Source: Thermoplasmata archaeon (GTDB taxonomy: Archaea; Thermoplasmatota; Thermoplasmata; RBG-16-68-12; SOIM01). From it: 64,000 nucleotides of DNA. The stretch covers positions 228,621 to 292,620 of the forward strand of contig JAGLME010000018.1 in assembly GCA_023140195.1 (NCBI GenBank), read 5' to 3'. The position numbers and the translations under genes are program-made. Shown here in pieces: positions 47,887-64,000 of this stretch. The notes under the pieces were generated by a model. That model saw only the letters and a list, made by a program, of their open reading frames with translations. It was not told the origin of the DNA and searched no databases. Position 1 is the first letter of the stretch, and every line of letters begins with the position of its first letter.

Positions 47887-48948
47887 ATGGACATTGACAC
47901 GACCAACCAGCTTCGCAACCGAACTTGGTGGTGGTGGTGGTGGGTCTTCTTCTTCAAGAATCAGGATGAACCCAACAGGACGAAACAAATGGTGGTTCTC
48001 TGGGGCACCAGGAACTGCAAAAAGGTCTTGGTTAACGACCATCCGTGGTCAAGAAAGAGCGATATTCAGAAAGAACCCGGGGTGGTCTCGGCGTACGGCA
48101 TGACGGCATCCTGGTACTTCGACGGGAAGACCATGATGGACCCTCTCTTCATAGATGACGGGCCGATGACGAGCACCTGGTCCCCGGGAAGGAGGGAGTT
48201 GAGCCTTGCCGGAAAAGGTCACTATGTCTTTTCAGGAGAGGATGACACCAACAAGGTCACCATCGCGAGAAAGGACATGAACATCGAGATCGACATGAGA
48301 CCCTGGACCGACTTCTTGACCGATGTAGCTCCCACCGGAAAGGAGTACTTCATGCATCTGAGCTACGCCATGCACAAGATAAGGGGAAGCAAGGCCAGAG
48401 GACACATATCCATTGGGAACAGAGACGAGGAGGTTGAAGGGACCGCTTACTTCCAGAAGGTCCGCATAAACTCACCGACAACACCCTGGTACTGGGGTGT
48501 TTTTCATTCGGAGACAGGGTCCTTCATAGATTACTTCATGCCCCACATCGGCCCACCCGTGTTCCGGAGGACCGAGAGGCACTCCAGCAGGCTGGACTGG
48601 GGGGAGAGGATTCTGTCCAAGAGCTGGCGGTTCTATGATGCTCAGGAAGGAATACTTCACACCATCCATAACATCAGGATGAGGAAACGCTATGAGAACG
48701 ACTTACCTATCTTCATGCTCAGCGGGGATGACGGGGACAAGAAGTTCGAGATGGAGATGGAATCGTATTCGCGTGCATACTGGAGGATACAGCAACCATT
48801 TCTGAGGATATTCAACACAGTGCTTTACTACAACGAGTACCCTGTCAACGTTACGAAGTTCAGTTTCGAGTCACCCAACACCAAGAGGACCTTGGAGGAC
48901 CTGGAACCGATCGTGGGCAACTGCGAGCATGCCTGGGGAATCGTCTAG
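47887..48948 (+). CDS. Hypothetical lipocalin/CrtC-like beta-rich protein with a hexa-tryptophan N-terminus
   Basis: MDIDTTNQLRNRTWWWWWWVFFFKNQDEPNRTKQMVVLWGTR...; beta-rich W/Y-containing body. Fold assignment is weak. Confidence 0.65.
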   Translation: MDIDTTNQLRNRTWWWWWWVFFFKNQDEPNRTKQMVVLWGTRNCKKVLVNDHPWSRKSDIQKEPGVVSAYGMTASWYFDGKTMMDPLFIDDGPMTSTWSPGRRELSLAGKGHYVFSGEDDTNKVTIARKDMNIEIDMRPWTDFLTDVAPTGKEYFMHLSYAMHKIRGSKARGHISIGNRDEEVEGTAYFQKVRINSPTTPWYWGVFHSETGSFIDYFMPHIGPPVFRRTERHSSRLDWGERILSKSWRFYDAQEGILHTIHNIRMRKRYENDLPIFMLSGDDGDKKFEMEMESYSRAYWRIQQPFLRIFNTVLYYNEYPVNVTKFSFESPNTKRTLEDLEPIVGNCEHAWGIV

Positions 48949-51900
48949 TCCTCTTCGTCCAGGAATTCGCTCCCTTCTTCTGGAACAGGCTCTTCCTCGA
49001 ATTCCAGATCATCGATAGGCGGAGGAACTTCCTCTTCCTCCGGAACCGGCTCTTCGTAGAACTCCTCTGGTTGCTCGGGCTCCAACATCTCTTCCTCGGC
49101 CGGCTTTTTCTTCCTGAGTACGAAGAACAACAGCAGACTTATGATGACTGCCAGTAAGATTATTAGCAACAGCCAAAGCCAGGTGAGATCAGCTGCTCCA
49201 TCATCCGACGGAGGTGTCACGGGTTCTGTCTCGGTCGTGAAGGTGAATGTGTAAGTTCCTAATGCGTTCCCCGCAAGGTCCTCGGCATCGGTGATTGTGA
49301 CGGTGTATTCGGTGTCGTATTCCAAGTCTTCGAGAGGAGTTATCACAAGAGTGTTGCCATCCCAGCTCTCACTGAATGAGATGCTGTCCAGATCAACGTC
49401 GACCGAGGCCTCGTTCATGGGCTCATCGAATTCGATCTCAATCACGGGGACATCGACCGCAACATCGGTATCTTCGTCGTCAGGTGTCGTGCCGATCACT
49501 GAAGGCGGTGTGATATCCACAACAGGTGGTTGATCCTCCGTCTGGAAGTTGAAGGTGTAGCTGTCCCCGCCGGTTCCGTCGCTGTTCCCGTCGAGGAAGT
49601 TGCCGATCACGTCGGTCGCGATCGACCCATCGAGAGTGACAATGTATGTGGTGGTGTACGCGAGGTCGGTGGTTGGATTGAACTCCATTGTTCTGTTGCC
49701 GTTGGACCAGGTGATTGCCCCGTCTACAGAAGTCCAGGTCGTTGTCAGATCGGTGTAGTTGAATGAGGATACAACACTTGCTGTGTCCATGGGTTCGTCG
49801 AAAGTGAGGGTGATGTTGGTTGCTATGGATATGCCAGTTCCCGTGGGAGTTCCAGACGCTGTTGGCGGTGTGGTATCCGCAACTATGTTGATTGTCGCGA
49901 AATCTCCGGTGATGTTGCAGTTCGGCATGACATCGCAGCCGTAAACCCACACTTCATATGGACCGATTGCCCAACCTGCTGTATCCACAGTCTCGTTCAC
50001 CCCTTCAGATATGAAATTGAAGGCCCCATCAGTCGGGTTCATCAGCGTACTTGGCCAGTTGTCCTGACCGATCGTGAAGTTCGCCCCGCCAATGTTGGAT
50101 CCGCCCGTTGTGGAATCGTCGATATCTGCGGTCAGGACCACTATGGCACCAGCCGTCACTGTGACGCTTGGTCCACCATCCACGAATACATTCGAGATCT
50201 CTGGAGGTAGATTGTCTACCATAATTGTCAGAGTAGCGCTATTTTGGCATGTGGCGTTGCGATTATCGAGTACATCTCGTGCGTTGACGCAGATAAAATG
50301 GTCACCCGGCGTCCAAGCAGTAGTGTCAATGGTAATATTCACTCCCTCGGTCGGATTGTCAAAGGTTCCGTCACTTGGGTACATTGGGTTTCCGGGCCAA
50401 GCAGCTCCTTGTTCCACCCAGTATGCGTCCCAGATGTCACTGCCACCGGTCACGGAATCGTCCACGTCCGCGTCCAGTCTAACGAGGGTTCCAGCAGTTA
50501 CCGAAACGCTGGCCGTTCCATTCAGGAAGACGTTCCACACATCCGGCATCACGTCGTCCACAATCGTCAGAGTTGCACAACTTCCCGTCATGTTGTAGTT
50601 CGGAGGAATGACCTGATCCCAGCCGTACACGCAGTAGTCGTACACCCCTGCCACAGTCGGAGTTGGTATGGTCAGATCTACATCTTCCGCCGTGTCATTG
50701 AATGTCCCGTCCATCGGGTTCATCGGTGTTCCAGGCCAGTTGTCAGCCGGAGTGGTGTAGTTGGCGCCGCCAATAGCTGTGCCGCCGGTTGAAGTATCAT
50801 CGATCAGTGCCGTGAGCCAGATCGTGGCGGGCAAAGTAGAGATCTGGTATGTTTGGGTTGGTTGTCCATCTATCAGTACATTATTGATCTCTGGGGGTTG
50901 GAAGTCACATACAGTGATGTTAATTGTTGCGAAGGCCGTGGAAGTTATGTTGTAATTGGGAATCGAATCCCAGCCGTAGACATGGAGGTCGAAGGGCCCG
51001 CAGTTCCATCCAGTAGTGTCCACCAGAGCAGTTACGTCTTCGGATACATCATCTCCCCAACTCCCGTCCACTGCGAACATCCCCACACCCGGCCAAGCCG
51101 CAAAGCTCATGGTGTAGTTCGCGAACATTATGTTGGACCCACCAGTCAGTGTGTCGTTCACAGTGGCATTTAGGGTAACGATAGTCCCTGCCGCCACATT
51201 GACCAATGCGAGACCGTTCACTGTGACGCTATGGACCTCAGGCGGCATGCTCTCCCCAACGATGTTGATTGTCGCGAAATTTCCGGTGATGTTGCAGTTC
51301 GGTATGACATCGCAGCCGTAAACCCACACTTCATATGAGCCGATTGCCCAACCTGTTGTGTCCACCATCCCGATCACATCTTCAGTTATGGAATCGAAGG
51401 TCCCGTCCGTTGGGTTCATAAGGAAACCTGGCCAGTTGTCCTGACCGATCGTGTAGTTCGCCCAGCCAATGCTGGATCCACCCGCTGCAGAATCGTCGAT
51501 ATTCGCGGTCAGTACCACTATGGCACCGGCAGTCACCGGGACACTCGCAACACCATCCACGAGAACATTGTTTATCTCTGGAGGCTGAAGGTCGGCAGAG
51601 GTGATGTTCAAAGTGGCGAAGTCGCCGGTAGTGTTGCATTTGGCCACGGCATCGCATCCATATACCCAGATCTCGTAAGAGCCGACCAACCATCCTGTGG
51701 TGTCAATGCCATCGATAACGATCTCAACGGGAGAGTCAAAGGGTGGGGTTTGGGGGAACATCGGACTGCTAGGCCAATTCGCCATACCGACGGTCCGGTT
51801 AGCACTGGCGATGTTGGAATTCCCTGTCAGAGTGTCATTCAGGAGGGCAGCGAGACCCACAAGGGTTCCACCTGTTACGGTCCTGAACTTCACGCCGTCC

Positions 51901-54695
51901 AAAAGGACATTGTGAATCTCAGGAGGCTCCATGTCGGCGCTGAATTCAACGAAGACCTCTTGATGCGAGATCGACATGTCCACGAATCTCGGGTTGTTAA
52001 CGAATGTCCGCCCAACCACAGAAACCTCTCCGATCGTGATGTTCTCGGTCGCGATCATGCTCCCCTCGTAGATCCTGTCAGTGACCACTATCCAGTTGAC
52101 TTTCCCGCCGGGATTGGTGGTTGGATCTCCGCCACCAAAGAAAGGAGTCGCGTACACCTGTGCCAAGTTATCACGTATCTCAACATCAGCGTTAGGAAGT
52201 GGAGCCAGAACAACGTCCAGGACCTTCACGTGAAGGTAGTTCTTGACGGTCAGATTATTATCAGGTGCGACAAAGACCAGGGCTCCGTCGAAGGTTGTGT
52301 TGAGTGTCGTCGCGTTGGAAAGCATTGTCAACTGGAAGTCCCACAGCCCTGAGTTTGTGATTGTGCTGTTTTCCACAAGCAGATTATCCGATAAGAAATC
52401 CAGCAGAACTGCCACTTGTGTAGAATTGTTGACTCTGGTCCGGTCAACGAGATTGTCACTGGAGTCCAAGAAACCCAGAGCCACATCGGTATTCTCGATA
52501 GTGTTGTTCCTGATCAGAGTGTTGTCCCCGCCGAAGGAAACTACCCCGGCAGATCCTCCTGATATCATCGGGTTGTTGGTAATATTGGCCCAGTCTCCAT
52601 CCGTGTCCAGAATTATGCCCATGTTGTTGTCTTGGATCTTGTTCCCGTCAATTAGCACTCCAGGTCCGGCACAGAGAATGCCTGCCTGGTTTCCGTTCAC
52701 GATATTGTTATCAGTAATCTGGACAGATCTCGCCGGCGACCCGACCTCCACGACGAAGGACCCGTTAGCCTGCTGGGTCCCTAGAATGAAATGAAGGCCG
52801 CCAACGCCCACTGTGATCGTAGGGTTCTGACTGATGTTAACCCAAGTAGCTCCCGTAGGTATCGTGATGGCACCTCCTCCAATCCCGGGAATGGCATTGG
52901 CACCGTCATATACGTGGCCTCCATCTCCGCCCTGGATGTTAACACTAAAGATGTCCACTCCATTGACAGTATCGATGTAGAATGCATGTACGCCCTGGCC
53001 TGCGCCGGATCCCATTGGATGGTAGTTGTCACCGCCCTTACCACCGACAATAGTGCCCATGTCGAACGTGGGTGCGTTCGTCTGCCCAAGGTAGACTGCA
53101 TAACCACCTGGACGGCCGTCCCCGGTCTGACCGTAGTTGTCTCCGCCCTCGCCTCCACCGATGTAGTTGTTATCGACAAGACCTGTGGTGTCCATGGACC
53201 GCAGCCCATAGCCTCCATTACCAGGACCAGACATTATCCCGGGACCTAATCCAGCGTAATCATCTCCCCCTTCTCCACCGAAGACGCGGCAGTTCCTGAT
53301 AGTTATGTTCTGGGAGATCGACGAACGGATACCGTTTCCACCGTTGCCTGCAAGCACACCCAAGCCAGTGAGAGTGTTGTTGCCACCATGGCCACCTTCA
53401 ATGATGTTGGTGAGGACCAGAGTGCCCCTGTTGTCATTCAGATTAATTCCGGATCCACCATATCCAGGAGTGACCCCGCCCATCATGGACGCACCACTGT
53501 TGTTTCCACCCTTTCCGCCTTTAATGTCAATATTATCACGGATTCTGGTAGGCATTCCTCCTACATTGTCCAAGGATATTCCAGTGCCGCCAGTTCCAAT
53601 TGAAAGCAACACATTGTGGTTGGCGAAGTTGTCTCCGCCGTCTCCTCCAGATATGTAAACGTTTTTAGCAATGGAAACAGTGCCCACGTAATCGTTATCG
53701 CTGATGAGTATCCCTGGACCGCCCCATCCTGAATCTCCATCCATTGTGGCGTTGTTGATACCGCCATTCCCTCCTCGGATGAATGTGTTACCGCTAATGT
53801 TGATGCCCGGCATGGGTCCTCCCATGTCAAAGACTGGGAATGCATGGAAAGCTAGACCGCCTCCTCCGGCACCTCCGCCATCTATGTTGTTGTATCCACC
53901 ATTACCACCTTGGATTCGAGTGTTCCTGATTAGCCCGATGGGACCATCCAGGTTGATTGTGAAGATGGCGCGCCCACCTGGGCCAGTTGGATCTGCGTTT
54001 CCACCGATGATGGTGCTCCGGTTAATCCAAAGGGTGTCCCTCACGACCCCGGTCGCATAGATGGCCGTCCCACCATTATTGGTCATTGAAGCAACTGGAG
54101 GAGAGGATCCCAAGACCTCTGTTCCGTTGATATGCAGAAGACCGCCGGTATAGTAGATTCCATACGGGTAGCAGGTCTGTACGAAGCTTCCCTGAATTGT
54201 AACATCAGCATCGTTGATCTCTATCCCAGTGGATGCAAATCCGATATAGGTTCCGCTGAATCGTCCGATGCTCCTAGCTGAGAATATGAACCCCGTCCAA
54301 TCCCCAGGCTGCGGTGCCATTGAAAAAGACACGAAAGATATCCCGCCAGCAGCCGACTGCTGAGAAAGGAATACTCCGTTGACAAGTATCTGAAATCCTG
54401 GTGCTACGTACAGGACTTCGTTGTCTCTCATGTAAACGGTATCTGGTGTGGCTCCTCCCGCGATCGTCAAATCGTTCAACAGTATGTATTGTCCACCACC
54501 AACACTCTGCACATCGCCTCCTGAGAAGGTAACCAGATCGTCCATGTTCCAGTTAACGCCGCTTCCGGGCGTGTTGTAAGCCTTGACCGTCGGCATCTGG
54601 GTCGGCATGACCACAAGAAGCGAAACGAGTACCAGAATCACGACTGTGACAATCGACATCCATTGGGCTCGCCCACTAAATTCCTCTTCTGACAT
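48945..54695 (-). CDS. Giant surface protein: parallel beta-helix region, Ig-like repeats, C-terminal Big_5-like domains and TM
   Basis: N-terminal TM/signal; repeated IxGGxGGxN motifs; repeated PPEINNVLVDGVASVPVTAGAIVVLTANIDDS; DTTPPTASGTPTGTGISIATNITLTFDEPMD; TM WLWLLLIILLAVIISLLLFFVLRKKK. Confidence 0.85.
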   Translation of the reverse strand: MSEEEFSGRAQWMSIVTVVILVLVSLLVVMPTQMPTVKAYNTPGSGVNWNMDDLVTFSGGDVQSVGGGQYILLNDLTIAGGATPDTVYMRDNEVLYVAPGFQILVNGVFLSQQSAAGGISFVSFSMAPQPGDWTGFIFSARSIGRFSGTYIGFASTGIEINDADVTIQGSFVQTCYPYGIYYTGGLLHINGTEVLGSSPPVASMTNNGGTAIYATGVVRDTLWINRSTIIGGNADPTGPGGRAIFTINLDGPIGLIRNTRIQGGNGGYNNIDGGGAGGGGLAFHAFPVFDMGGPMPGINISGNTFIRGGNGGINNATMDGDSGWGGPGILISDNDYVGTVSIAKNVYISGGDGGDNFANHNVLLSIGTGGTGISLDNVGGMPTRIRDNIDIKGGKGGNNSGASMMGGVTPGYGGSGINLNDNRGTLVLTNIIEGGHGGNNTLTGLGVLAGNGGNGIRSSISQNITIRNCRVFGGEGGDDYAGLGPGIMSGPGNGGYGLRSMDTTGLVDNNYIGGGEGGDNYGQTGDGRPGGYAVYLGQTNAPTFDMGTIVGGKGGDNYHPMGSGAGQGVHAFYIDTVNGVDIFSVNIQGGDGGHVYDGANAIPGIGGGAITIPTGATWVNISQNPTITVGVGGLHFILGTQQANGSFVVEVGSPARSVQITDNNIVNGNQAGILCAGPGVLIDGNKIQDNNMGIILDTDGDWANITNNPMISGGSAGVVSFGGDNTLIRNNTIENTDVALGFLDSSDNLVDRTRVNNSTQVAVLLDFLSDNLLVENSTITNSGLWDFQLTMLSNATTLNTTFDGALVFVAPDNNLTVKNYLHVKVLDVVLAPLPNADVEIRDNLAQVYATPFFGGGDPTTNPGGKVNWIVVTDRIYEGSMIATENITIGEVSVVGRTFVNNPRFVDMSISHQEVFVEFSADMEPPEIHNVLLDGVKFRTVTGGTLVGLAALLNDTLTGNSNIASANRTVGMANWPSSPMFPQTPPFDSPVEIVIDGIDTTGWLVGSYEIWVYGCDAVAKCNTTGDFATLNITSADLQPPEINNVLVDGVASVPVTAGAIVVLTANIDDSAAGGSSIGWANYTIGQDNWPGFLMNPTDGTFDSITEDVIGMVDTTGWAIGSYEVWVYGCDVIPNCNITGNFATINIVGESMPPEVHSVTVNGLALVNVAAGTIVTLNATVNDTLTGGSNIMFANYTMSFAAWPGVGMFAVDGSWGDDVSEDVTALVDTTGWNCGPFDLHVYGWDSIPNYNITSTAFATINITVCDFQPPEINNVLIDGQPTQTYQISTLPATIWLTALIDDTSTGGTAIGGANYTTPADNWPGTPMNPMDGTFNDTAEDVDLTIPTPTVAGVYDYCVYGWDQVIPPNYNMTGSCATLTIVDDVMPDVWNVFLNGTASVSVTAGTLVRLDADVDDSVTGGSDIWDAYWVEQGAAWPGNPMYPSDGTFDNPTEGVNITIDTTAWTPGDHFICVNARDVLDNRNATCQNSATLTIMVDNLPPEISNVFVDGGPSVTVTAGAIVVLTADIDDSTTGGSNIGGANFTIGQDNWPSTLMNPTDGAFNFISEGVNETVDTAGWAIGPYEVWVYGCDVMPNCNITGDFATINIVADTTPPTASGTPTGTGISIATNITLTFDEPMDTASVVSSFNYTDLTTTWTSVDGAITWSNGNRTMEFNPTTDLAYTTTYIVTLDGSIATDVIGNFLDGNSDGTGGDSYTFNFQTEDQPPVVDITPPSVIGTTPDDEDTDVAVDVPVIEIEFDEPMNEASVDVDLDSISFSESWDGNTLVITPLEDLEYDTEYTVTITDAEDLAGNALGTYTFTFTTETEPVTPPSDDGAADLTWLWLLLIILLAVIISLLLFFVLRKKKPAEEEMLEPEQPEEFYEEPVPEEEEVPPPIDDLEFEEEPVPEEGSEFLDEED

Positions 54696-54818
54696 TTGAA
54701 CAGCCTCCAACTAACCTAACACATCGACACTGCATCCCATATAAATATTTGTAGGAGCGGTTCTGCATATGTGAAAACAGTAGCAAGAAGAATGGCATTC
54801 AAACATCCAAGCAGGTCA

Positions 54819-56384: not shown

Positions 56385-56749
56385 TGAATCCCAGAATAGG
56401 ACTATTTGTTATTAAGATTTGTCATGTCAAGGATTTGTTGTCATTTTGGGTCATACGGGGCGTCGAAATCGTGCCGACAACTTCGCATCTGTCACCTTCA
56501 ATCCCTTCTGAGGCTCATAGACGCATTCTCCTGCTCTTATTCTTCCTTCTGTGAATTCTCTCCATTCTTCTCTTGATCTCCCTTACACCCTCAATAAAGG
56601 CTCCACAACGCTATCGTTCTCTATGATCTCATGCTAGAAGCACATTTTTTCTCAAAAACGCAATTCGGACGTATACGGAGACGACAAGCCTGCTCAGAGA
56701 ATTGCCAGGATTCAAATGCGGCATGGGAAGTACAGGCTGGATACCCGGG

Positions 56750-57118
56750 TCACTGCGTACCATTTCCTCGCTTCCCACTCCTTTTCTCTCTCCTAGAGTC
56801 AAGACACATCTGAACCCATTCCTGGGGAATGCCAACCGCGGTGAAGGCTTCCATCGAGAGCGTCGGCCTTGAGGTGTATGCGTCGCCCAGGACCATCGTC
56901 TCCCAGACGAAATCGCAGAGCTCCGGGATCTGCTTGTGTTTGGCCGCCGGTGATCTGTCCGCCTCCTTGCACTCCTTGCATATCATGAAGTAATATTTGT
57001 CCCCGGGGAAGCCGGGCAGGGCTTTGAACGCTACCTCGACCTCGCCCGTCCAAGGAAAGAAATGGCTTCCACATATTCCACATGGAATGGCGTTCGGGGA
57101 ACGCTTCATCTCGACCAT
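56750..57118 (-). CDS. Hypothetical Cys-containing protein
   Basis: 122 aa; CGICGSHFFPWTGEVEVAFKALPGFPGDKYYFMICKECKEADR (two CxxC knuckles). Confidence 0.6.
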   Translation of the reverse strand: MVEMKRSPNAIPCGICGSHFFPWTGEVEVAFKALPGFPGDKYYFMICKECKEADRSPAAKHKQIPELCDFVWETMVLGDAYTSRPTLSMEAFTAVGIPQEWVQMCLDSRREKRSGKRGNGTQ

Positions 57119-57594
57119 GCCTCAACCTCCCGCATCAGACCTGTCATCCTCCACGTAGGCTCAACTTCGCCTCCCTGAGCGCAATCCTGTGATACGGTTG
57201 CTGTGCGTCCCTGAGAACTCTTTTCGCCTCTTCCAGTGCTATCTTGTGATGCGGTTGCCGCTCCACTTATAGACCATCAGGTCGTACTTTGTTGGATTCC
57301 ATGATCTAACTTTCAGACCAAAGGCGATGTAGAGCATTTTCAGAACAAAATACAGGGGAATTATCACAACCAGCAACCAGGGGTCAAGCATCATATCGCC
57401 AAATGGACTATGGGGATTTAAAGGTTGTCCAAATGTCCGAGTTCGTGTTCGCCTCTATTTCCCTATATAAAGATACTACCCCGAAAACCCCTCAAATCGA
57501 CCCAAAATGTCCGACTTTGCTATGCCAACTCGGAAATTTCTAATCGAGGTTTCAATTTGGACCTATGATATGTCGGAGTTCTCATTGAAGTCTG

Positions 57595-57912
57595 TCATTT
57601 TTCCCTCTCTAGAACAGATTTCTGTTTGCGAATAAGGCTTACTGTGGTGGATCTCTCAGAGATTAAGGCTATACTCTTTTGATTCTTCAAATCGTTCATG
57701 AAACACAGGCATATGGACGACCCATCTACAACACCTAAGAAGAACTGTCTAAATGATTCGTATCCTCTAGAATAGAGCTCTCTATCCACTAGTGATTGCC
57801 ATATCTTCTTCACAGCTAGATGTTCTTTGTTTCTCAATAATTCCTCTGCCATCATCTCTCGGGTGTCGTGGTTTGCATCCCATTCTAATACACCAAAGGT
57901 GCACCTACGCAC
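57595..57912 (-). CDS. Hypothetical protein
   Basis: 105-aa ORF; no recognised motif. Confidence 0.4.
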   Translation of the reverse strand: MRRCTFGVLEWDANHDTREMMAEELLRNKEHLAVKKIWQSLVDRELYSRGYESFRQFFLGVVDGSSICLCFMNDLKNQKSIALISERSTTVSLIRKQKSVLEREK

Positions 57913-57960
57913 CCTTTAATCATTCTACCTGAGAAATACAGCCAACGCTTTCGAACGGAC

Positions 57961-57968
57961 TATATAAG
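57961..57968 (+). promoter_or_regulatory. Possible archaeal TATA box upstream of the STAND gene
   Basis: TATATAAG in an AT-rich intergenic stretch; about 210 nt from the TTG start, so tentative. Confidence 0.3.
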
Positions 57969-58180
57969 TAGATAGAAGCTCACAGGAGTACGTCACTTGA
58001 AGCTAGGAGTGAAATCAAGATAAGGCGGTGGCCCGACCTGAATGTGCAGTATCCAAAGATGTTGGACGATGAAAACTTATACATTTAAGGTATCTATTAG
58101 CAATGAACTCCATTGTGAGAAAGGATACACAAGACAGAATAGAATATATGGGGATACGAATCATATGAGGAGGGATCATA

Positions 58181-61100
58181 TTGTCTTGGACTCGAAAGCT
58201 TGCGAAGATCAAAGAGGCCTATGAGAAAGTCGTAAACGTTTACTACTACGTAAGAGACGGTGTCAAAAAAGTCAAGGAAAAACCTGTATTGGATAAAGCC
58301 GCTAGATTCGCATTAGGGGCAATTCCTGGAGTGGGTACCTATCTGCAGAAATGGTACGAAGAAGCAGGCGGCTCGGATGAAGAGAAGACAGGGGAGATTC
58401 TTAAATTCTTAGCCAGCCTTCAGGAACAGAATGAAGACCAATTCAATCGAATATCAAAGGATTTACAAACGAATTTAGATGCGATAATCAACAAGGGAAC
58501 CGAGCTAACTGCGTTGATGACGGAGAGATTTGATGAGATTATAGTGAAATTTGGTGAAGCGGATCAGAAAATGAACGGATTAGACCGGAATGTAGCAAGA
58601 ATATTGCAGAAGCTCAAGGCATCCACTCCACCAACCAAGGTCACTGAACTGTTTGAGGTAATTCGACATTCCCCAGATGTATTACCAGCGATTTTTCGGA
58701 TGGACTCCAGTGAAGGATTTGCACCTTATGAGGTCCCTTATATCATGGAAAGGGAATCCGTGGAGAATAATCAGGATGATATATACCGTAGACTCCTGGC
58801 CAGCGGGGGAGCACTTCTTGTGCAAAGCCGTGCTGGTCTGGGCAAAACTCGGGAAGTTGCCGAGTTGGCAAAACGTTTATGTGAAGAAAAGGGGTGGACT
58901 ATATGCGTTGCTAAGGGAGAAGGGGACTCATATCTAAACACCCCAGCTGGCTTTCCCGATGAGCTGCGTGACAGAAAGGTGTTATTTGTATTTGACGATC
59001 TGCATCGACGCCTGGATATGTGTTCGTCTGAACAGATCCCTTATGCGGAAAGACTTAACAGTTTTCTGAAATTCTTTGAAGATGCCATGAATTCGGGGGA
59101 AATGTATGTAGTTGCCACAGCGCGGACAGAACCACAATATCAGGAAAAACTGAGGTCTGATACATCGCGACCTTTGTGGAGATGGTTTAAGGAATATGAA
59201 TTGCCCGAGTTTACACTGACTGGGCTACAATCAATACTGGGAAAACTGACCAAGAATCTAAGTGTGGATATTGATGAAACCCAGATTAATCGGATGATAT
59301 CCAATAGTGATAAGACATTCAGAACCTTGCTGATGAATGTAGAACACGCCCGTGATATTGGTCAACGGCTGACACTGGATAATTGGCGACCCAGTCAACT
59401 CGAATCATGGAGGGACAGATTCGAATTGGCCTGTGGAAAATGGCCGGCCGCCAAACAAGTCTATGACACCTTATATCTAATCCGAGAGGTTTGGCTTCCA
59501 ACCCGATTTGATTATGTCGTACAATTAGGAGCTAAGTTAGCAGATACCGAAGTAACCACGGCAGCCAAGGGTCTGGTCAACATGGGGCTTCTAGGTCTGC
59601 GGAACGGTCAATTAGATGCTTTTGGTGATGAACAGTTGAGAGATTCCTTGCAGGTTACAGGAATCGGTCTGCCAGAATTGGCAACACACTGGAAAACAAC
59701 CATAGAAGCGATTAGGACAGTTGTGGAGACAAAATCGGAGTGGATCCATGACTTGTTTTATCTCACTTCAAGGCTGATTCTTGCCAATCGATTCAAAGAT
59801 GCCGAATCGATAAGTACAATGGCACTCAATCGAGGTCATGATACCTCTGGCATCTACACTGCAAGAGGTTTGGCGCGAAGTGCACAGAATAATTATGCCG
59901 GAGCTGAAGAAGATTTCACGGCTGCTATCGATCGAGGAGAAGATGACCCTAGAATGTACAGCCAACGTGGAGTGGCGAGGGATCAGCTAGGTGACTACCT
60001 CGGAGCTGAAGAAGATTTCACGGCTGCTATCGATCGAGGGCTGGAAGACGCTGAAGCATACAGAGTGCGGGGAGTCGTACGAGTCCATCGAAGCAACTAC
60101 GTTGGTGCTGAGGAAGATTTTGCAGCAGCCATCACCCGTGATATGGACAATGCTGATCTCTACTATTCCAGAGGCATTGCGCGAGGTTACCAAGGCAACA
60201 ACGCTGGGGCAGAAGAAGATCTCACAGCTGCAATCATCCGGGGCCGGGATGATGCTGGAGCATATTGCAATCGAGGCGCTGTACGATATAACCTGGGTAA
60301 CTATGTCGGAGCTGAGGAAGATCTCACGACTGCCATCGATCAGGTTCAAGACGCCGGGACATACTACCATCGGGGTGAAGCGCGTCTTTGTCTGGCGAAC
60401 TATCCCGAGGCAGAAGAAGATTTCACGACAGCCATCGCCCTGGGCAGGGTTGACGCTAAAGTATACTTCTTTCGAGGCGGATCACGATTGCCGCTGGGTA
60501 AGTATTTCGAAGCGGAGGAGGATTTCACGACAGCCATCGCCCTGGGCAGGGTTGATGCTGAAGTATACTACTCCCGCGGCGTGTCACGATTGCCGCTGGG
60601 TAAGTATTTCGAAGCGGAGGAGGATTTCACGACAGCCATCGCCCTAGGTATGAATGATGGTGGCGTCTACATGGAACGGGGCCAATCGAGATTTCATCAG
60701 GGCAAATTTAGTGAAGCGGAGAATGATCTCACGGAAGCAATCGCTCGTGGAGAAGATAATGCTGAGATTTACTGGGGACGATATAATGTGCGAAAATTCC
60801 GGGGTAACTATGCTGGAGCTGAAGAAGATCTCACAGCTACAATCGCCCGGGGCTGGGATGATGCTTGTGTCTATCAAGACCGCTCGTTAATCAACGTTCG
60901 CCTAGGTCGAATCGAACAAGCTAGGCAAGATTGTAAGTGTGCTGAAGAGCGTGCTCATGATGATCCTGTCACATACGGTTGTTGGGGTAACCTACATTTA
61001 GCTTTGGGCGAATATGATAAGGCTATTTCTCGATACCAATCTGCTCTGAAAGGTCGACCAAATTCCAGATGGCATTTTGAAATGGGATTGGCATTATTAT

Positions 61101-61297
61101 TTGCGCGTCGGTTTGATGATGCGGTATCCGCTTTCCAGAAAGGTATGACAGAATCAAGCCCCAATCGTATTAAAGATGCACTAAGAGATATTGATTTCTG
61201 GGTCGAACGTCACGCTGATCATGCAGCATTTCCCAAAGCCAAGTATACAATTGATATCATTCGTCAACAATTGAAAACCCACATATCCAAGGGTTAG
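58181..61297 (+). CDS. STAND-type P-loop NTPase with N-terminal helical domain and C-terminal TPR array
   Basis: 1038 aa; Walker A LVQSRAGLGKTREVAELAKRL, Walker B KVLFVFDDLHRRL, VVATARTEP; then many NYxGAEEDFTAAIDRGxxDxxxYxxRGxAR 34-aa units. GGAGGG precedes the TTG start. Confidence 0.85.
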   Translation: MSWTRKLAKIKEAYEKVVNVYYYVRDGVKKVKEKPVLDKAARFALGAIPGVGTYLQKWYEEAGGSDEEKTGEILKFLASLQEQNEDQFNRISKDLQTNLDAIINKGTELTALMTERFDEIIVKFGEADQKMNGLDRNVARILQKLKASTPPTKVTELFEVIRHSPDVLPAIFRMDSSEGFAPYEVPYIMERESVENNQDDIYRRLLASGGALLVQSRAGLGKTREVAELAKRLCEEKGWTICVAKGEGDSYLNTPAGFPDELRDRKVLFVFDDLHRRLDMCSSEQIPYAERLNSFLKFFEDAMNSGEMYVVATARTEPQYQEKLRSDTSRPLWRWFKEYELPEFTLTGLQSILGKLTKNLSVDIDETQINRMISNSDKTFRTLLMNVEHARDIGQRLTLDNWRPSQLESWRDRFELACGKWPAAKQVYDTLYLIREVWLPTRFDYVVQLGAKLADTEVTTAAKGLVNMGLLGLRNGQLDAFGDEQLRDSLQVTGIGLPELATHWKTTIEAIRTVVETKSEWIHDLFYLTSRLILANRFKDAESISTMALNRGHDTSGIYTARGLARSAQNNYAGAEEDFTAAIDRGEDDPRMYSQRGVARDQLGDYLGAEEDFTAAIDRGLEDAEAYRVRGVVRVHRSNYVGAEEDFAAAITRDMDNADLYYSRGIARGYQGNNAGAEEDLTAAIIRGRDDAGAYCNRGAVRYNLGNYVGAEEDLTTAIDQVQDAGTYYHRGEARLCLANYPEAEEDFTTAIALGRVDAKVYFFRGGSRLPLGKYFEAEEDFTTAIALGRVDAEVYYSRGVSRLPLGKYFEAEEDFTTAIALGMNDGGVYMERGQSRFHQGKFSEAENDLTEAIARGEDNAEIYWGRYNVRKFRGNYAGAEEDLTATIARGWDDACVYQDRSLINVRLGRIEQARQDCKCAEERAHDDPVTYGCWGNLHLALGEYDKAISRYQSALKGRPNSRWHFEMGLALLFARRFDDAVSAFQKGMTESSPNRIKDALRDIDFWVERHADHAAFPKAKYTIDIIRQQLKTHISKG
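60421..60659 (+). repeat. Near-identical 102-nt tandem repeats within the TPR array
   Basis: TTTCACGACAGCCATCGCCCT recurs at 60421, 60523 and 60625 (period 102 nt = 34 aa). Confidence 0.9.
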
Positions 61298-61452
61298 GAC
61301 ATTTTGGTCAAATCAACCATTCAACAAAGATCAATGCCAGTATTGCATTTGAAACAAATTGTAATAAGCAGAGTTCCGAGAAGGTAGGGGATGGCCATCG
61401 GGGAGCGGCGGGGCTCCAAAACACGTCCGCATGCCTCTGCAAAAGGCTGAGA

Positions 61453-62256
61453 CTACTCAGGAAAAGCGAGTTTTGTATCTTCGTGCATTCTCTCAGAGAG
61501 ACCGCGCGTCAGCGATTCGTGTGAATCCAAGATGTTCTTCCTTGCCGCTGCGTACTTCCCTATGCTGTCATACGTATCCAGCTTCATATACAGCTGATAT
61601 ACAAAATCCGATCTCTCGATAGTAAGAGGAGAGAAACGAGCAAACTCTTCCCGCCACGACCTCTCCTCCTCCAACTTCTTGAGGGTTTTCTCCGCCGACC
61701 AATTCATCACTATCGCGGGGTACAATAGGCTGACCAAAGGTCCAAGAGCATTGATCTTCTCAGCGACAAGGTCCTTTTCGTCACGATATTCGGAATCGAC
61801 CATGACTTTCTCTTGTGGGACAAGGACATTCAGCGTGTCTTCAACGCATTTTTGGATATCTCTTCTTGCTTGAGTTCGAAATCGATGCATCTCGTCAAAA
61901 CTCCGAAAGAATCCTGTGATTTGTGAATATAGTTCTTCATATTGGATTCTGATTTGACCGAAGATTGGGAGTTTAGAATAGTGTTCCAGTCTTCTATTCA
62001 AACCGAAGAAGGATTCATTGTCATCATATGGATTCTCTTCGAATGCTCTTATCCGTCTCTCAGTGTCGCTGGCATCCTTCTCCATATCAATCAGAATACT
62101 GGTCAATCTTTTCTCCGCGTTCTCCATTCTCCTTGTATCCAACCAAGCCTTCTTGCCGTATTTGTAACCCACCCAGGCGGTGAACGTGCTTGAGACAATG
62201 CCAGCAATCAAGAGCACGATTGGCCAGAACGAGTTTATGAATTCTTCCCATTCCAC
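61453..62256 (-). CDS. Membrane-anchored helical/coiled-coil protein
   Basis: N-terminal TM FWPIVLLIAGIVSSTFTAWVGYKYGK then about 230 aa of charged helices; convergent with the STAND gene. Confidence 0.7.
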   Translation of the reverse strand: MEWEEFINSFWPIVLLIAGIVSSTFTAWVGYKYGKKAWLDTRRMENAEKRLTSILIDMEKDASDTERRIRAFEENPYDDNESFFGLNRRLEHYSKLPIFGQIRIQYEELYSQITGFFRSFDEMHRFRTQARRDIQKCVEDTLNVLVPQEKVMVDSEYRDEKDLVAEKINALGPLVSLLYPAIVMNWSAEKTLKKLEEERSWREEFARFSPLTIERSDFVYQLYMKLDTYDSIGKYAAARKNILDSHESLTRGLSERMHEDTKLAFPE

Positions 62257-62446
62257 ACACGTGCCTCCGATGAATGTACATAATATGATGTCGCATTTAA
62301 GCCTTAGTCAGACGACCACCTGGGAGGCGGCGAGAAAACTCCCTGATTTAAGCCCCGAGCATTACTCTTCATAGTTCCATCCAGACTGGATTTCGAAAGG
62401 CATATATATCGTGATGTCGCCTGAAATCAAGGAGGTGGTTTAGAAG

Positions 62447-62755
62447 ATGCCAGAATATGACTATTATCATTGGCATAGACTGAGAGAGGCGGGATTCCCT
62501 GTCAAACCCATGCCAGACGTGATCATCGACCTCAAGAAAGAACCTCTGTCTCTCGAGGGGCGGATAGCCCAGGACATATACGAGTTCAAGAAGCGGGTTG
62601 AGAAGAAGCGGGAACGAGAAGCACAGCCTCGATTTCAACAGCAACTTGAGGAAAGCGAAACCTTTTGGCGGGAGCATTTCAAGAGACAACAACGGGAGCT
62701 TGAGGAAAGCGCCCGTAGATATACACGTCAACTTCGAGAATGGAACGATAGGTGA
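62447..62755 (+). CDS. Hypothetical charged helical small protein
   Basis: 102 aa preceded by AAGGAGGTGG and an upstream CATATATATC TATA-like element. Confidence 0.6.
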   Translation: MPEYDYYHWHRLREAGFPVKPMPDVIIDLKKEPLSLEGRIAQDIYEFKKRVEKKREREAQPRFQQQLEESETFWREHFKRQQRELEESARRYTRQLREWNDR

Positions 62756-62769
62756 TGAGGTGGATTCCC

Positions 62770-62928
62770 ATGAGTGATGAACCGAAACGACTCGGAAGGG
62801 TGCTACCCGAGTTATCAGAACCCCATGTGTCGAAGGCACATCCACACGAACATGTCGACCTCTTCTTGAGGGATACGGCAACCGGAAGAAAGATCGGGAA
62901 ATTGAAAGACGGTCTGAAGCTGGAGTAG
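62770..62928 (+). CDS. Hypothetical 52-aa small protein
   Basis: MSDEPKRLGRVLPELSEPHVSKAHPHEHVDLFLRDTATGRKIGKLKDGLKLE, preceded by GAGGTGG; not in the ORF track because of length. Confidence 0.5.
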   Translation: MSDEPKRLGRVLPELSEPHVSKAHPHEHVDLFLRDTATGRKIGKLKDGLKLE

Positions 62929-63079
62929 GAAGAGTGTCCATCGGACTCCAGCTCCACAACTTTTACAGCCTCTTTGGATGTCCGTTCGAATCGGTTTGTG
63001 GTAGTATATAAAGAAGTATCCTCAGACCGAAATCCTTTTTAACATAGACCTACAGTTTATCATGTGGAGGTGGTCTAGA

Positions 63080-63241
63080 ATGGGTAGGGAGTTCACACAG
63101 ATTAAGAGAAGTCAGCCTGATAAGGCAATCTCGATTAACCACCCTGCAACCGAGGTTGACCATATCGTCAACGTCATTGACAAGGGGGAGATTAAGGTCT
63201 ACGTAAACAGAAAGGGCCAAGGACAGATTCGACTGAAGTAG
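63080..63241 (+). CDS. Hypothetical 53-aa small protein
   Basis: MGREFTQIKRSQPDKAISINHPATEVDHIVNVIDKGEIKVYVNRKGQGQIRLK, preceded by GGAGGTGGTCTAGA and a TATATAAA element near 63006. Confidence 0.55.
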   Translation: MGREFTQIKRSQPDKAISINHPATEVDHIVNVIDKGEIKVYVNRKGQGQIRLK

Positions 63242-63290
63242 TGTCAATGGTCTTGCGAGTAACCCTAGTGTGCACAGGGGCTATACAACA

Positions 63291-63479
63291 ATGTGCCGAG
63301 GAAGAGGAGGTGACAGAACGACGTACAAAGAAGATAAGGAGTTTGAAGAGATCCTCAAGAAGTACAGCAAACACAAGATTTTCCCGCCGGTTTTACCATG
63401 GGAAATGACGATGGGCGAGAAGTATGAAGAGATTCTACGGGAAAAGCGGGCAGGTCTCGACCCAAAGAGAAGACTGTGA
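63291..63479 (+). CDS. Hypothetical small protein
   Basis: MCRGRGGDRTTYKEDKEFEEILKKYSKHKIFPPVLPWEMTMGEKYEEILREKRAGLDPKRRL; same strand as the neighbouring small ORFs. Confidence 0.45.
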   Translation: MCRGRGGDRTTYKEDKEFEEILKKYSKHKIFPPVLPWEMTMGEKYEEILREKRAGLDPKRRL

Positions 63480-63664
63480 CCGCATGGCGAAGGACGCTCG
63501 TCAGAGCCTTTCCCTCATCTCACCAATTTGACCAACCTTGGGAACTTGATTGGAGGAGCGATTGGTGGAGTCCGAAATATCATCCACTGATTGCCCCACC
63601 AGTCGATTATCATCGAGTCCCAGCCTCTCCTTTTGCAGTTCCCAAGGTATATCCCAGAATGTAA
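63476..63664 (+). CDS. Hypothetical Trp/Pro-rich small protein
   Basis: GTGA overlap with the preceding ORF; QFDQPWELDWRSDWWSPKYHPLIAPPVDYHRVPASP. Confidence 0.35.
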   Translation: MTAWRRTLVRAFPSSHQFDQPWELDWRSDWWSPKYHPLIAPPVDYHRVPASPFAVPKVYPRM

Positions 63665-64000
63665 GTTCGTGCAGAACCTTCAGCTTCATTACGCATTTCC
63701 TTCTTGGTCGCATGGAAAACAGGCAGAATGACCCGAACAGCTCTCTGATGCCTTAGTCTACACTTCTCTGTACACTACTTCGTTGACGATCGTCATTCCT
63801 TAAACACGATCTTGAGGAGGGGGCGGGTAGTCTATAGAACTCCCCCTTTCAGTCCTCTTGTGGCCAATGTGGAGAGTGAGCACCAAAACAATCATCAAGA
63901 GCAGCCCAGGCAGATACCTTTGATGAGCGAAAACCCACCTGACAATCTTCTGCATGAGCCTGCCACCTCACATCCCATCGCCAAACGCTTTTTTAGTACG

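Follow-up and report, generated by a model that had tools for sequence, protein, structure and literature searches.

Judged from its sequence motifs, the gene at 58181-61297 on the plus strand of the window (the whole 64,000-nucleotide stretch of archaeal DNA analysed here) encodes a STAND-type signal-transduction NTPase that ends in a long array of TPR units. The gene is most likely cargo near the left end of one integrated element, 7.6 kb of which lies in the window. It is a plausible candidate defence gene, and we lean towards reading its product as a putative sensor-switch that stops growth or kills the cell before an invader replicates. An earlier note, made from the letters of the DNA, had also read the gene as a STAND defence candidate; the architecture and the mobility of the DNA speak for that reading, while membership in a known defence family is not supported, since the nSTAND matches are below threshold and PADLOC gives nothing meaningful.

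The open reading frame is intact and encodes 1038 amino acids. From the DNA we read a TTG start codon at 58181, preceded by a ribosome binding site GAGGAGG at 58168-58174. The protein is built of three blocks. A helical N-terminal block, the presumed effector or adaptor, comprises residues 1-157 (58181-58651); the P-loop NTPase core and the helical region that follows it extend from residue 158 to about 518 (58652-59734); and the presumed sensor, 14 TPR units with a 34-residue period, occupies residues of about 519-1010 (59735-61210). The reading frame and the motifs quoted in the earlier note were all recovered, namely the Walker A motif SRAGLGKT at residues 216-223 (58826-58849), the Walker B motif VLFVFDDLH at residues 267-275 (58979-59005) and a sensor-1-like VVATAR at residues 310-315 (59108-59125). 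Its estimate of about 14 TPR-like units also agrees with the 34-residue register. The effector-NTPase-repeat plan that it proposed is supported as well, and further weight is added by a homologue with a different N-terminus and by the insertion context.

On the evidence of these motifs, the NTPase is of STAND type and lies outside all curated models. Both Walker A and Walker B (of the hhhhD[D/E] type) are present and are conserved in the only true homologue found, the Chloroflexota protein L118 described below, and the sensor-1 strand ends with an arginine in both proteins (VVATAR here, VLAAAR in L118). The position before Walker A that resembles hhGRExE is degenerate: IMERESVE, which lacks the glycine, compared with QVRQEGRDI in L118. 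The GxP motif after the NTPase core is without its proline, and SDKTFR (NDGTFR in L118) is found at the expected place. GxP may be lost in divergent STAND clades; we therefore use the label "STAND-type" and do not assign the protein to a named clade. As for the winged helix and repeats of STAND proteins, the TPRs are present, and the available model, with a pLDDT of 37, does not confirm a winged helix. In a search with STAND profiles, which the earlier note had proposed as a check, the best non-TPR Pfam models are nSTAND_NTPase5 (PF25199) followed by nSTAND3 (PF20720), with scores of 19.4 and 16.1 bits, respectively, against gathering cut-offs of 34 and 27.2. The NTPase passed no Pfam, NCBIfam or PADLOC cut-off, and the NCBIfam, PHROGs and PADLOC searches returned only TPRs and noise. 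The PADLOC check that had been suggested thus yielded no meaningful match; in PADLOC-DB, which includes the Avs/AVAST models, only weak and unrelated matches were obtained (PbeC, E=0.02; mad8, E=0.03). A PDB search with a two-member profile of the protein and L118 gave FtsY/NorQ P-loop noise only, with E values above 0.2.

The TPR array is firmly recognised, with TPR models of Pfam scoring far over the cut-off (TPR_2, E=1.6e-37), so the repeats are not due to chance. Two neighbouring units are 91-93% identical in DNA, which implies a recent change in the array, and the duplicated units at 60419-60645 appear as 2.2 copies of a 102-bp period with 93% matches. For the N-terminal block, the secondary structure was taken from low-confidence models, hydropathy and helical moment; the AlphaFold2 models were computed without homologues, have pLDDT values of 37 and 56, and were read for helix content only. 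The predicted order in residues 1-157 is an amphipathic cationic helix, a short FALGAIPGVGTYL turn and a long coiled-coil-like helix. No segment of this N-terminus is of transmembrane strength (mean hydropathy at most 0.73, compared with 2.38 in L118), and the Pfam scan found neither a recognisable effector nor any family match in it; there was no Sir2 match in the Pfam scans of the protein. The best Foldseek match of the N-terminal model (pLDDT 56) has an E value of 0.64, and none of the matches listed is named HeLo or MLKL. Foldseek matches to ESCRT-III/Vipp1 helices have E values above 0.6 and were left uninterpreted, and matches to Sec10_N, TetR_C and the exocyst were rejected as sub-threshold coiled-coil matches.

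With residues 236-333 as the query, a sole true homologue was found, an unnamed protein of an Anaerolineae MAG of the Chloroflexota (L118:1191-2924, JARYMM010000052.1), which is surrounded by ordinary chromosomal genes. The two proteins are 32% identical over 310 aligned columns (E=8e-30), the match covering residues 158-453 of the archaeal protein. The blocks common to both are FVFDDLH, PLWRxFxxYELP and TFRxLLxNVxHAR, the last of which occupies the place of the STAND GxP motif without its proline. L118 resembles the archaeal protein in that it keeps the NTPase and the following helical region, with some TPR matches after them, and it also has a sub-threshold nSTAND3 match. It differs in that two hydrophobic N-terminal segments (mean hydropathy 2.38) replace the coiled-coil bundle, and in that it has few TPRs, although it may be cut short at the C-terminus. 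STAND proteins typically exchange their N-termini in this way. An NTPase core kept between an archaeon and a bacterium, next to an N-terminal block that differs, is as expected for an exchangeable effector, judging by this single homologue. The amphipathic helix and coiled coil in one protein and the two hydrophobic segments in the other suggest a membrane target for both.

A search with residues 1-540 through the 61 nearest genomes, a 390-genome sample of the phylum, plasmids, phages and IMG/VR retrieved only the query itself and three weak Walker A matches in proteins of the AAA_16-TPR type. The gene is absent from the 60 nearest genomes and from the 390-genome phylum sample, also when searched with the two-member profile, and no relative of the protein was found in the plasmid, phage and IMG/VR collections; the apparent rarity of the family is a lower-bound statement, valid for the collections searched. 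The three AAA_16-TPR-type proteins (L082, L083 and L084) were rejected as relatives after alignment, which covers essentially the Walker A stretch only at about 12-13 bits. A match of the two-member profile (A2) in G400 was likewise rejected, its open frame looking like that of a clamp-loader (RFC-like) protein. Searches of the relatives with PF20720 and PF25199 were uninformative: most of the matches were to other P-loop proteins, and many of these were about 330 amino acids long, the size of a clamp-loader subunit. The earlier note had named two outcomes as contrary to its reading, and neither was seen: the NTPase falls in with no housekeeping family, and the relatives do not keep the gene as a conserved single copy.

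The case for an integrated element rests on a comparison with the sister genome G001 and with the relative G003. Synteny with them covers truD and rpoL and ends sharply at 56412, and the lineage-specific, AT-rich DNA beyond this point, presumed to be the left part of the element, runs from 56413 to 64000, where the last base of the window is also the end of its contig. Within the syntenic part, a 1921-residue surface-type protein on the minus strand (48945-54710) has internal repeats and a C-terminal hydrophobic anchor, and G001 and G003 have its relatives in the corresponding position. The next genes in these two genomes are what we take to be those of a DUF35-type protein, a thiolase, HMG-CoA synthase and an HTH protein. 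In the window's genome, the HMG-CoA synthase operon lies on a separate contig, C110, where homology to G001 resumes at C110:66181 and overlaps the break in the window by exactly 8 identical bases. This 8-bp sequence, TTTGTTAT, is found at both junctions (56405-56412 and C110:66181-66188), and the uninterrupted locus of G001 has a single copy of it (C60:21005-21012), the pattern of a target-base duplication; the assembly leaves the two contigs separate. From the TTTGTTAT junction on C110 it is 51 bp to the start of a gene for a tyrosine recombinase (C110:64882-66129; Phage_integrase, E=2.4e-25). The convergent neighbour of the STAND-TPR gene, on the minus strand at 61453-62256, encodes 267 amino acids with an N-terminal hydrophobic segment and a coil and has no family match over the cut-off, and its paralogue is found on the other flank at C110:59876-60613 (E=1e-13). 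The earlier note had described the stretch as AT-rich and flanked by unknown ORFs, and both points hold: G+C is 44.9-48.2% over 56-64 kb against 49-55% upstream, and the flanking ORFs are without a Pfam match over the cut-off and without PADLOC or PHROG matches. The low G+C, together with a GC3 of 0.43 in the gene versus 0.67 in the neighbouring truD, agrees with acquisition from elsewhere. We read both flanks as one element because of the shared 8-bp junction, the recombinase 51 bp away, the paralogues on both flanks and the shift in composition. No terminal inverted repeats were found at the two insertion ends, where the best score is below the shuffled maximum, and TTTGTTAT was not found near a related recombinase in G003.

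Several other features were observed in these regions. Four short plus-strand ORFs at 62447-62755, 62752-62928, 63062-63241 and 63270-63479 have no PHROG match and may be element genes. A dispersed repeat of roughly 120-170 bp at 57417-57590 contains the conserved near-palindrome AATGTCCGACTTTGCTATACCAACTCGGACATT and has no Rfam match, as is the case for the whole of 56400-64000; its copies occur in the window's genome, G001 and G003 (L075:12948-13240, L115:12040-12260, L117:7300-7480 and L079:3900-4060), and it may be MITE-like or an operator. Adjoining the recombinase gene is that of a YunG-like protein (G000:C110:64297-64659; PF24585, E=1.7e-9). Also, a second tyrosine-recombinase-like family is located beside tRNA-Pro(CGG), next to the HMG-CoA synthase operon. 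Its members are G000:C110:69783-71063 (L072), G001:C60:24607-25893 (L067) and G000:C28:251413-252696 (L069); G001 and G002 also have truncated forms, several of them at contig ends.

In STAND immune proteins, as is generally known, sensing falls to the repeats, switching and oligomerisation to the NTPase, and the action itself to the N-terminus (PMC12931631, PMC10907252). If the present protein works in the same way, the element, which would have entered this Thermoplasmatota archaeon between rpoL-truD and the operon of HMG-CoA synthase, would carry a sensor that uses its C-terminal array of 14 TPR units to recognise a ligand, foreign or stress-related and probably a protein. Once ATP is bound at Walker A/B, the closed form would give way to an oligomer, and the clustered N-terminal amphipathic helices and coiled coils would act, most likely on the membrane or via a partner. 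The presumed outcome is growth stop or cell death ahead of invader replication, with an antiviral benefit. The trigger, the effector chemistry and the antiviral role given here are those that we infer for the protein. Several observations count against this scheme: the NTPase stays below all curated cut-offs and has no PADLOC match, its GxP and hhGRExE-like motifs are imperfect, the N-terminus shows neither a recognisable effector nor a segment of transmembrane strength, the insertion is pieced together from two unjoined contigs, and the gene has no operon partner, its neighbours being divergent or convergent.

The same sensor and switch could serve other ends. Many STAND/AAA-TPR proteins are regulators, and the protein might be a non-immune STAND- or AAA-type regulator in which the TPRs sense an internal signal or a protein partner, and the switch passes this on to an output in metabolism, stress response or transcription. 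We regard this as unlikely. The lack of defence neighbours and of a PADLOC match would suit it, as would the occurrence of AAA_16-TPR proteins in the same phylum (L082, L084), but the latter align with our protein at Walker A only, the Pfam scans found no DNA-binding, kinase or cyclase domain, and inserted DNA that is absent from all sampled relatives is ill-suited to a core regulator. Less likely still, the protein would serve the element and not the host, by superinfection exclusion, by maintenance or addiction, or by control of excision or replication, with the same mechanism. To our knowledge, STAND switches are not excision or replication factors; moreover, the plasmid, phage and IMG/VR collections hold no relative and L118 sits among ordinary chromosomal genes, even though the gene's location near one end of the insertion, the tyrosine recombinase at the other junction and the small unknown genes next to it are what an element-serving gene might show.

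Another possibility, and the least probable of those weighed here, is that no element has been integrated here. The break at 56412 would then be a mis-assembly or a chromosomal rearrangement, perhaps one that made use of this same site, and the gene merely an accessory chromosomal gene of the lineage. The exact 8-base overlap of the homologous stretches in the uninterrupted G001 locus, the closeness of the recombinase gene to one junction (51 bp), and the presence on both flanks of a dispersed repeat and of two homologous genes argue against this. It would account for the placement of the two junctions on separate contigs, for C110 extending more than 66 kb past its junction with no obvious element end, for the absence of terminal inverted repeats at the two ends, and for the size of the window's genome (2.98 Mb versus 2.1 Mb in the sisters), which contains much lineage-specific DNA.

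Returning to the reading of the gene as element-borne defence cargo, the protein represents a type of candidate that is missed by profile libraries, being intact, STAND-like in plan, encoded on inserted DNA and equipped with an NTPase that scores below the cut-offs; apparent gaps may partly reflect missing models and not missing genes. Should it prove immune, the archaeal NLR-like proteins would gain an NTPase clade and an effector of unfamiliar type, along with two searchable motifs. Tentatively, and as a possibility rather than an expectation, we also propose an unmodelled STAND NTPase clade, marked by PLWRxFxxYELP and TFRxLLxNVxHAR and sporadic in archaea and Chloroflexota, which would swap N-terminal effectors directed at the membrane, either two transmembrane helices or an amphipathic coiled-coil bundle. 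In archaea, this clade would travel with tyrosine-recombinase elements and serve as an immune sensor whose TPR array changes fast.

When compared with known systems, the protein has a familiar plan, but its NTPase is outside the curated models and its N-terminal domain has no family match; found on inserted DNA of a little-studied archaeon, it makes a good candidate. The AAA_16-TPR proteins of Thermoplasmatota share with it a P-loop NTPase followed by TPR-like repeats. The nearest described architectural parallel is Avs5, which has an N-terminal Sir2 effector, an nSTAND3 NTPase and C-terminal repeats of the TPR/Sel1/PPR type, and for one Avs5 protein a phage activator has been identified (PMC12931631). 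Our protein differs from Avs5, and cannot be counted as a member, in that the Sir2 effector is missing, the nSTAND3 match is sub-threshold and PADLOC gives no match. The sensors also differ in extent: PaAvs5-1 has one TPR and one Sel1 motif (PMC12931631), whereas 14 regular TPRs are present here.
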